A program made the translations under genes and the position numbers. 62,021 nt of DNA, from the NCBI GenBank assembly GCA_947074105.1, contig CAMTON010000009.1, positions 1 through 62,021 of the forward strand. The letters run 5' to 3'. Positions within the stretch are counted from its first letter, which is position 1. Every line of letters starts with the position of its first letter. Shown in pieces: positions 51,169 through 55,535 of the stretch. The stretch is from an uncultured Bacteroidales bacterium. GTDB lineage: Bacteria > Bacteroidota > Bacteroidia > Bacteroidales > JAUNSR01. The notes beneath the pieces are model-generated. The model was not told the DNA's origin. It worked only from the letters and a program-made list of their open reading frames with translations, and made no database searches.

Positions 51169-52749
51169 TTAAAATTCCGAAGTAAAATGGAATTTGATTT
51201 TCGGGAAATCCTGTTGCGCCATCATAAGCACATAGCCAGAGTCAGCAAGAAAAACGTCTCTTCCGTCTTTATCGACAGCCATATACTGACTCTTACGACG
51301 TTTGAAGTTCTGAAGAGCTTCAGCATCATCACTTTCAATCCAGCATGCTTTATACAGGTTGATTGGCTCCCAGCGACATTGAGCACCGTATTCATGAAGC
51401 AGACGGTACTGAATAACCTCAAACTGAAGCTGACCAACGGTACCGATAATCTTTCTTCCGTTAAACTGATTTGTAAATACCTGTGCCACACCTTCATCCA
51501 TAAGCTGCTCAATACCTTTGTTAAGCTGCTTTGTCTTCATTGGATCGGCGTTCTCGATATATTTGAACATCTCGGGTGAAAAGCTCGGTATACCTTTGAA
51601 ATGAAGCATTTCTCCTCCTGTCAGAGTATCGCCGATTTTAAAGTTACCGGTATCAGGCAAACCTACGATATCACCTGCGAAAGCTTCATCAACGACTTCT
51701 TTCTTCTGTGCCATAAAAGCAGTAGGACTTGAGAAGCGCATCAGTTTATTATTTCTAACGTGTTTATAGTTTACGTTTCTTTCGAATTTTCCGGAACAGA
51801 TTTTCACGAAAGCGATACAGGAACGATGATTCGGATCCATATTAGCATGTATCTTGAATACGAAGCCTGAAAATCCTTCTTCCTCAGGTTTTACCTCTCT
51901 TTCAACCGCCTTAACAGGGCGCGGAGTCGGAGCAATCTTACAGAAACAGTCAAGAAGCTCTTTCACACCGAAATTATTAAGGGCCGAACCAAAGAATACC
52001 GGTGCGATTTCACCTGCAAGATAAGTATCGACATCAAATTCAGGATATACGCCTTCGATAAGCTCAAGATCCATTCTCAATTTGTCGGCATCAGCCTCAC
52101 CCACTCTATTATCAAGTTCAGGATCATTGACATCTGCGATTTCCACTGATTCTGTCACACGCTGTTTATTCGGAGTATAAAGATCCAGTTTATTCTCAAA
52201 TATATTGTAAACACCTTTGAAGCGTTGACCTATATTGATAGGCCAGCTTAAAGGACGCACGTTTATCTTAAGTTCTGATTCTATTTCATCAAGAAGATCA
52301 AAAGGATCTTTACCTTCGCGGTCCATCTTATTTACAAAGACGATAACAGGAGTTTTACGCATACGACATACTTCCATAAGTTTTCGTGTCTGCATTTCCA
52401 CACCTTTGGCTGTATCGATCACTATGATTACACTGTCAACAGCTGTCAGCGTACGGTAAGTGTCTTCAGCAAAGTCCTGGTGACCCGGAGTATCAAGGAT
52501 ATTGATTTTATATCCGTCATAGTCGAATGCCATTACGGATGTCGCAACAGAGATACCGCGCTGTTTTTCGATTTCCATCCAGTCGGAAGTTGCTGTTTTC
52601 TTGATCTTATTTGATTTTACCGCTCCTGCTACATGGATAGCTCCACCAAAAAGCAGAAGTTTCTCTGTAAGAGTCGTTTTACCGGCATCGGGATGTGAGA
52701 TGATGGCAAACGTTCTTCTTTTTTTTATTTCTTCAGTTAATACACTCAT
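51169..52749 (-). CDS. prfC: Peptide chain release factor 3
   Basis: A 526-residue translational GTPase that recycles RF1/RF2. G-domain motifs: [15 protein letters not shown] (G1), RGISVATSV (G2), [16 protein letters not shown] (G3), and [10 protein letters not shown] (G4). The C-terminal domains and length are those of RF3, not EF-G. Its promoter region includes a -7-like TAATTTTG on the minus strand at 52772-52779. It is monocistronic. Confidence 0.96.
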
Positions 52750-53225: not shown

Positions 53226-53777
53226 TTAAAGACCTTCTATTTCCAGAGTACCTTCTTTATACTGACGGTATTTATCTGACAGAATTGCTAGAAAAGTGCC
53301 GATATCTTTTACAGCGGCAAGAGTTTCAGGAGAGACATCTTTATTTTTAAGTCGTAGCATAAGTACTCCGTAAAGAGCAAGGAAGCAAGTTTCAAGCTCT
53401 CCTACTGCATTTTCACCTGCCTTACTTCGAAGTTCTACAATATAAGGAAGCGTTTTATAGAACGCAGCGGTATAGAAATGCTCTTTTTCAGATCCTAAAA
53501 GATGCTGATGTATATCCGAAAGTTCCGATATTACATTTTTATTTATCTGAAGATGCCCTGACTCAAGTTTTTGTTCGATTCTCATCATTTCTATAAGATT
53601 CTCATACCACTCTGTCATTTCTTTTTTTTGCTTATCGTCAAGATCGAATTTATCAATTATATTCTTTTTTATCTCTTCAATATTAAGGTGATTGGCTCTT
53701 ATAGAATCTTCTACCTGCCACATATATAATAGGTATTCGGCGATATTTTCTTTTCTTTTTTTATTTGCAATTATCAT
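53226..53777 (-). CDS. DUF4924 family protein
   Basis: A 183-residue all-helical soluble protein of a family found mainly in Bacteroidetes. The conserved start is MIIANKKRKENIAEYLLYMWQVED. The rest is charged and amphipathic. Nothing is known of its function. In the family it often lies beside a peptidoglycan-ligase-like gene, and here the next upstream gene is a degenerate Mur-ligase-like protein. The synteny suggests a cell-wall link, which I infer only. Confidence 0.8.
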   Translation of the reverse strand: MIIANKKRKENIAEYLLYMWQVEDSIRANHLNIEEIKKNIIDKFDLDDKQKKEMTEWYENLIEMMRIEQKLESGHLQINKNVISELSDIHQHLLGSEKEHFYTAAFYKTLPYIVELRSKAGENAVGELETCFLALYGVLMLRLKNKDVSPETLAAVKDIGTFLAILSDKYRQYKEGTLEIEGL

Positions 53778-53913: not shown

Positions 53914-54810
53914 TTATTGAAAACTGTATTCGGAAATAGCTTTATAAAAATCCTGATCTTTTACCCCCATATGCCTGCAGGTGATTCTTGCTGCATTAAG
54001 ATTAATAAGAAAATCTTTAGTTGTATAGTTTATCTTATAGTTTCCGAATCGCGTCTGAAGCTGACAACCTGAGTTATCTTCTATAAATTTATGCTGTGTA
54101 AAAGGAATTGCTGTTATATCATCTCTTACTGTTTCTGCAAGTTTTAAAAGTGTAGTGTCATTTTCATTATAAATCAATTTTCCATTTTTCTCTATTGAAG
54201 AAAGGAGTTTACGATAGGAATCAGCTTCTTCATCTTTCAAAGATGATAGAACCAGGATATGAGGTCGGAAATATTCGTTCACAGGTTTTTTGACCACTGA
54301 AGAATAGCTTGTGTTATTTTCTATTACAGCCATTCTTGTATCATAGCTCCAGTTAACAGTGCAAAGGTTATTCTTATGAATAAGGTCACTGTCGTTATTA
54401 ACTACATAGTCAAAAAGGAGATTATTTTTTTCAAGAACATAGAAAATCATCTCTATTATAGAGCTCTCGGATTCAGGCTCTTTTACTATTACTCTTAGTT
54501 TATCTTTTATTTTTTTGAAAATATATTCCGGAAAAGTGAGGATATTGATATTTAACTCTTTAGCTCGCTGAATTTCAGGATTATCAGCTTCCAGATCGGA
54601 AGATGCTATAATATATTCACAATCGAAATTTAAAGAAAGCGGATGCCATCCTTCCGGATTATGGGCAAGACCGCACTGCTGCAATTTATTAATATCTTCT
54701 GCCGAAATATTTAAATAAGACATTGAAATTTCAACGCCTCTATTTTTTAATAAAACAGCAAGGTCGCAAAGATTAGAGTCAGCATTGGAGATGATATGGA
54801 TTCTTTTCAT
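53914..54810 (-). CDS. Degenerate Mur-ligase-like (Mpl/MurC-type) protein without P-loop
   Basis: A 298-residue protein. Its first 100 residues follow the MurC/Mpl Rossmann domain: RIHIISNADSNLCDLAVLLK, then VEISMSYLNISAEDI, and DCEYIIASSDLEADNPEIQRAKELNINILTFPEY, where active enzymes have the UDP-binding fold and the same NPEI block. At the position of the ATP-binding GTHGKTTT there is KEPESESSI (110-118). The C-terminus is shorter than the 450 residues expected, though FLINLNAARITCRHMGV resembles the hinge block before the third domain. It has probably lost ligase activity but kept a full, clean frame. I took ATG 54810 over 54828. Confidence 0.65.
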   Translation of the reverse strand: MKRIHIISNADSNLCDLAVLLKNRGVEISMSYLNISAEDINKLQQCGLAHNPEGWHPLSLNFDCEYIIASSDLEADNPEIQRAKELNINILTFPEYIFKKIKDKLRVIVKEPESESSIIEMIFYVLEKNNLLFDYVVNNDSDLIHKNNLCTVNWSYDTRMAVIENNTSYSSVVKKPVNEYFRPHILVLSSLKDEEADSYRKLLSSIEKNGKLIYNENDTTLLKLAETVRDDITAIPFTQHKFIEDNSGCQLQTRFGNYKINYTTKDFLINLNAARITCRHMGVKDQDFYKAISEYSFQ

Positions 54811-54893
54811 ATTGCCTTTAGTGAACAATTTTTAGTTACAATAACGGACGCGCGTAGGAAAAAGATTTAACAATATGAAATTATTATAATTTT

Positions 54894-55535
54894 TTAAGAA
54901 AAAAATTGTTTTAAGCCATATACGAAACCGATTATAGACACTATGACCATTACTATGGCAATAATTTTATTTACAAGGAAAAGACTTCTTAACTTAAAAT
55001 GAGCACGCACTTTATTCATAATCCAAGTGATAAATATCCACCAGGACAGAGCACCTAAAGCTATTGATAAATAACCTATGGTATATTGAGAGACATTATT
55101 GGCAGATAGAAGGAAGTTTGTTCTTGCGAAAAGCGCAAGATAGAAGAAGATTATCATCGGATTGGATAGGGTAAGAATCATTCCGGTGATAAAATACTTA
55201 AAGTAAGATGATTTAGATGTATGGGAGGTATTTATATCCTTAACAGGATTCTTTTTCCACAGATAGATCCCGAATATAAAAATTATGACGCTGCCTACAA
55301 CCTGCAGGGCCGATCCGTTGGAAGAAATAAAATCTACAATGAAAGAAAGACCCAGTCCTGAGACAAGTGCATAGATAAGATCGGATACGGCAGCTCCGAA
55401 ACCTGTTAATATGCCGGCATTACGTCCATTGTTTAATGTACGCTGTATCACAAGAACCCCTATCGGACCTAATGGTGCGGAGATAAGTATTCCTATAATC
55501 ACTCCCCATAAAACAGTATGAAACATCCAATCCAC
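54894..55535 (-). CDS. LysE/RhtB family amino acid exporter
   Basis: A 213-residue LysE-family protein with six hydrophobic segments. The start LWGVIIGILISAPLGPIGVLVIQRTLNNGRNAG is the usual APLGP-GPxG-like motif, followed by TGFGAAVSDLIYALVSGLGL. The charged break and later segments fit RhtB/LysE proteins, exporters of amino acids and related metabolites. It is 65-85 bases upstream of the Mur-ligase-like gene on the same strand. Its promoter lies in the 367-base gap before purL. Confidence 0.88.
   Translation of the reverse strand: MDWMFHTVLWGVIIGILISAPLGPIGVLVIQRTLNNGRNAGILTGFGAAVSDLIYALVSGLGLSFIVDFISSNGSALQVVGSVIIFIFGIYLWKKNPVKDINTSHTSKSSYFKYFITGMILTLSNPMIIFFYLALFARTNFLLSANNVSQYTIGYLSIALGALSWWIFITWIMNKVRAHFKLRSLFLVNKIIAIVMVIVSIIGFVYGLKQFFS

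Follow-up and report, generated by a model that had tools for sequence, protein, structure and literature searches.

MurC, the UDP-MurNAc:L-Ala ligase, and Mpl, the murein peptide ligase, are the described proteins closest to the one examined in this study. The C-terminal domain of Mur ligases is the seat of the amino acid or peptide. Pseudoenzymes, meanwhile, have been well studied among kinases and proteases. One Mur-ligase homologue, PAP11 (the plant MurE), provides a precedent for a subunit role, at the periphery of the plastid RNA polymerase complex (PMC12681378). Literature searches on Mur pseudoenzymes and on Mpl in Parabacteroides found nothing, and a conserved bacterial Mur-ligase pseudoenzyme appears to be undescribed in the literature searched.

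The window analysed here, a stretch of 62,021 nucleotides from an uncultured Bacteroidales bacterium (contig CAMTON010000009.1), encodes a two-domain, C-terminally truncated Mur-ligase homologue of 298 amino acids, here termed pseudo-Mpl (53914..54810, minus strand). The original prediction, of a Mur-ligase-like protein that has lost its ATP-binding loop, concerned this one gene, and the observation has been confirmed and extended to a conserved family.

A truncated MurC/Mpl homologue and its family

The reading frame of the window gene is free of stop codons, running from an ATG at 54810, with an alternative TTG start at 54828 (ORF 53914-54828, minus strand). The best match among curated models was murC (TIGR01082; E 8e-11, 41.7 bits against a cut-off of 335), mpl (TIGR01081) was matched with an E-value of 1e-3 and 18.1 bits (cut-off 388.7), and no Pfam match to the window protein exceeded its cut-off. 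Full-length Bacteroidales Mpl-like relatives also fall below the murC and mpl cut-offs, so failure to reach these values is by itself a weak test. As a single sequence the window protein matched the MurC structure 6cau (E 0.0014), and a profile of the short family, built from 44 sequences including four full-length relatives trimmed to the same region, matched Psychrobacter Mpl 3hn7 (E 1e-24) and MurC chains (1e-22 to 1e-18). The AlphaFold2 model of the window protein (pLDDT 89.1, pTM 0.87) resembled Mpl and MurC structures with TM-scores of about 0.65-0.81 in Foldseek, the highest being to Neisseria Mpl 3eag (0.81) and the best E-value to MurC 6cau (1.5e-16). The profile and structural comparison suggested in the original prediction therefore shows a real, if distant, homology to MurC/Mpl, and the protein is predicted to consist of the N-terminal and central domains of that fold. 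The N-terminal Rossmann-like domain spans residues 1-104 (54499..54810, minus strand), as delimited by alignment columns shared with 21 full-length Mpl-like proteins, and the remnant of the central, ATPase-type domain spans residues 105-298 (53917..54498, minus strand), as aligned to full-length Mpl-like proteins and PDB chains.

The short family comprises 44 distinct sequences that form a monophyletic group (support 100/100). A scan of GTDB species placed the short gene in Parabacteroides, Massilibacteroides, other Tannerellaceae, Coprobacter and further Bacteroidales; the remaining Bacteroidales in the order sample mostly carry a version of 450-500 amino acids or none. An assembly artefact or one-off was ruled out by the presence of the gene in independent genomes (G001, G002, G004 and G006). 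The full-length Bacteroidales-type Mpl was absent from 18/18 genomes carrying the short form, which rules out, for these 18, a paralogue beside a normal Mpl; the window genome has no full-length Mpl elsewhere, which answers the question raised earlier. Three genomes of one family (f3) carry MurC and the short gene and, in addition, a divergent MurC/Mpl-like protein at full length, with 462-516 amino acids and 26-28% identity (G006, C3:187358; G221, C16:36720; G301, C830:8185).

The full-length Bacteroidales proteins are named Mpl-like by homology. One tree favored a Paludibacteraceae protein (L094) as the closest of these to the short clade, and an AU test did not reject a grouping of the short clade with L124 of genome G292 (p 0.24), leaving sister status unproven by the tree. 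A truncated relative of 200 amino acids (L146, G082:C34:45132-45713) may be an mpl gene that broke recently; G185, of the same genus, has an open frame of 517 amino acids. Very divergent short forms (L143-L145) occur in genus g88, with part of the N-terminal domain outside the match and DUF4924 directly adjacent, and in L143 the P-loop region reads IRENRPYG.

The window genome itself has a separate, complete MurC-like ligase of 457 amino acids within a mur cluster (G000:C8). It also encodes an apparent MurF-Alr type fusion in an 838-amino-acid frame (L034, G000:C108), besides a separate MurF-like protein.

Residue losses and selection in the short family

Individual positions were compared between the 44 short relatives and a set of 21 full-length Mpl-like proteins from Bacteroidales. 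The roles assigned to the positions (UDP loop, adenine contact, catalysis, Mg ligand) are taken from what is established for MurC/Mpl structures. The catalytic His of the W-D-H motif and both the His and the Asn of the adenine-contacting H-N motif were each present in 21/21 full-length and 0/44 short sequences. The C-terminal domain (Mur_ligase_C) was likewise found in 0/44, and the chain of the window protein stops just ahead of the hinge to this domain; the length of 298 first reported is thus that of an intact ORF, shortened by the loss of a whole domain, with two-thirds of the enzyme remaining. At the P-loop site the window protein reads VKEPESESSI where full-length relatives have GGSHGKTT, which bears out the reported replacement by KEPESESSI (residues 110-118; 54457..54483, minus strand). 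The complete motif GxxGK[ST] was kept in 5/44 short and 21/21 full-length sequences, and the partial motif GxxGK was present in 30/44. Orthologues in the same genus (72, 48 and 44% identity) all lack the P-loop, in keeping with the original prediction, whereas more distant relatives retain part of it, as in the GxxGKK remnant of Parabacteroides. The sequence of the window protein effectively excludes ligase activity, and a non-catalytic Mur-ligase fold, as first proposed, agrees with both the structural matches and the lost catalytic residues. A split enzyme with its C-terminal domain encoded elsewhere was ruled out, as no stand-alone Mur_ligase_C was found in the window genome and all five hits sit within complete ligases.

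The N-terminal domain had been described as well preserved, which was overstated: the homology stands and the NPEI region is retained, but the UDP-facing glycine loop is altered from IAIGGAAM to IISNADSNL. Across the family, Gly10 of the N-terminal loop, expected to face UDP, was found in none of the 43 readable short N-termini, having given way to Asp, Glu or Asn, and Asp31 is gone from nearly all short sequences. Together with the missing C-terminal domain, these losses weaken the earlier suggestion that the protein binds a UDP-sugar or tripeptide. They bear equally on the cell-wall sensor raised in the original prediction, in which the remnant would still be able to bind a nucleotide, UDP-sugar or muropeptide and would signal the state of the cell wall. 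Such a sensor would be in keeping with a model that still has the N-terminal and central folds, with the frequent retention of the Mg-ligand-type Glu159 (39/44), of Asp161 (36/44) and of Asn277 (35/44), with the partial P-loops, and with a stable gene in a genome that makes peptidoglycan and keeps an LdcA-type S66 peptidase. Nucleotide binding by some family members is indeed possible, given the five species with a P-loop and the retention of Glu159. The changes at Gly10 and Asp31, the loss of the adenine-contacting pair from every member, the absence of the peptide-binding domain and a P-loop wholly gone from the window protein argue against a ligand sensor, however, and we consider it unlikely.

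In close pairs with measurable dS, the dN/dS of the short gene was 0.04-0.15, similar to that of DUF4924 and above that of prfC; between the window gene and its nearest relative dS was saturated and the ratio is an upper bound only. Length is nearly fixed, at close to 300 amino acids. Among the full-length proteins, conservation is highest in the N-terminal and catalytic parts (fraction of the commonest residue 0.76-0.79) and lowest in residues 201-304 (0.56), whereas in the short family residues 201-304 reach 0.64, which places them among its most conserved, and the other segments drop to 0.57-0.65, each lower than in the full-length proteins. All 44 short sequences share R159, R229, D231 and T233, which are not invariant in the full-length proteins. 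Judged from these comparisons, the family is under purifying selection without its catalytic residues, and conservation has moved towards the last 100 residues of the short protein. A fresh pseudogene, already doubted in the original prediction, was ruled out by the open frame in all 44 distinct sequences across species and the low dN/dS.

Slow decay is a different matter, in which a dispensable mpl remnant would be heading for loss, its frame being kept mainly for the translation of DUF4924. The uneven loss of the P-loop, the lower conservation of the short family relative to full-length Mpl, the occurrence of one locus with a full-length, short or no gene, and the ATGA coupling found in most species (see below) are all consistent with it. 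Coupling alone, however, would not conserve amino acids, and dN/dS values about equal to those of DUF4924, an almost constant length and newly invariant residues make such decay improbable.

The locus shared with DUF4924

The DUF4924 protein is the immediate downstream neighbor of the window gene (53226..53777, minus strand; PF16271, E 5.5e-75), separated from it by 136 bp with no overlap, and DUF4924 is adjacent to and downstream of the short gene in every locus examined. Among 36 junctions with DUF4924 that were read (35 with short genes and one with the full-length gene of G292), 25 overlap, usually as ATGA. The usual block consists of an MBL-fold hydrolase on the opposite strand, the short gene, DUF4924, RfbD and prfC, the last of these (peptide chain release factor 3) being a conserved downstream anchor that was located in the window by ORF and synteny (51169..52749, minus strand). 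The window and G001 have no RfbD between DUF4924 and prfC and have a LysE-type transporter upstream (54894..55535, minus strand; PF01810, E 3.1e-21), an order that differs from that of G004 in the same genus and so indicates rearrangement of the block within the genus. The transporter adjoins the short gene in G001 and in none of the other short loci compared, and is probably outside the module.

In G292 the same block holds a full-length Mpl-like ligase of 456 amino acids (GGSHGKTT) that overlaps DUF4924. In G023 (L046/L156, G023:C70) the MBL hydrolase directly faces DUF4924 and the interval holds neither a Mur gene nor a remnant of one; in G112 (L159, G112:C34) DUF4924, RfbD and prfC occur alone without a Mur gene. 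A single site thus seems to exist in alternative states, with the full enzyme, with the truncated pseudoenzyme or with neither. As this block is shared with a full-length Mpl-like ligase and with sites lacking a Mur gene, the short gene most likely descends in place from a Bacteroidales gene of the mpl type, whose full-length ancestor would, by homology, have been an active Mpl.

The original prediction held that DUF4924 commonly neighbors Mpl-like ligases. This is true of the short family; beside full-length Mpl-like genes the association is rare, occurring in 0 of about 25 loci in one comparison and once (G292) in a wider sample, which rules out DUF4924 as a general Mpl neighbor. DUF4924 was present in 192/393 genomes, about half of the sampled Bacteroidales and far more than carry the short form. 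Its frequency without a Mur neighbor suggests that the dependence is one-way, DUF4924 not needing the short protein. The DUF4924 protein is highly conserved, with an N-I-A-E-Y-L-L-Y-M-W-Q-I-E-D motif, and its model is all-helical (pLDDT 93); no fold match was found in the PDB, no match to a known enzyme was obtained, and literature searches found no publications on it.

On balance, we lean towards a pseudo-ligase descended from mpl and repurposed as a non-catalytic protein partner of DUF4924. Ligase activity would have ended in the ancestor of the short clade with the loss of its C-terminal domain, its catalytic His and the residues that bind UDP and adenine, the P-loop presumably eroding later and unevenly by lineage until it vanished in the window genus. 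The remaining two-domain body may act as the partner of the helical DUF4924 protein, the two probably being co-produced in most species through translational coupling. The binding surface could lie in the last 100 residues, where conservation is new (R229, D231, T233, R254, N272, R275, R279 and others), and may have been exposed by the departure of the C-terminal domain. Linkage to DUF4924, coupling, and a shift of constraint to the region next to the missing domain all support the partner reading. The many genomes that have DUF4924 without a Mur neighbor, the 136-bp gap in the window and the P-loop signature kept in five species weigh against it. A divergent active enzyme, in which the central domain and DUF4924 in trans make a new ATP- or phosphate-using ligase, is highly improbable: Glu159 and Asp161 are largely retained, five species keep GxxGK[ST] and DUF4924 is always adjacent, but the catalytic His is missing throughout, DUF4924 is all-helical without a known-enzyme match, and lineages such as the window genus and Coprobacter have a destroyed P-loop with DUF4924 still beside the gene.

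It may be tentatively proposed, at somewhat short of an even chance, that a dedicated two-protein module of the pseudo-ligase and DUF4924, unreported in the literature searched, has replaced the murein peptide ligase in Tannerellaceae and neighboring gut Bacteroidales and taken on a new regulatory or structural role.

Significance and comparison with known systems

The short family occurs among common gut commensals of humans (Parabacteroides), and its living species show the evolutionary steps, the locus preserving three stages: the complete enzyme, the truncated pseudoenzyme and no gene. In these genomes a gene that scores as MurC/Mpl-like may encode something other than a ligase, a caution for reconstructions of peptidoglycan recycling. 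The family would also offer a first functional handle on DUF4924, which is widespread in Bacteroidales.

Among known systems, Mpl and the full-length Bacteroidales Mpl-like proteins share with the short family the N-terminal and central fold, most short members have Y-R-P-H and E-G-D-type segments as in Mpl, and the full-length ligase of G292 shares the chromosomal position as well. Unlike Mpl, the short family has no C-terminal domain, catalytic His, UDP loop or adenine HN motif, its P-loop is degraded, and the window protein scores far under the family cut-off. MurC provides the best curated model and the best Foldseek E-value, yet the window protein, without the necessary residues, could not stand in for the complete MurC-like ligase of its genome. 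DUF4924, the constant neighbor of the short family, is uncharacterized. PAP11, on the other hand, is derived from MurE, is eukaryotic and has kept its C-terminal domain, so that its relation to the window protein lies at the level of the Mur superfamily.
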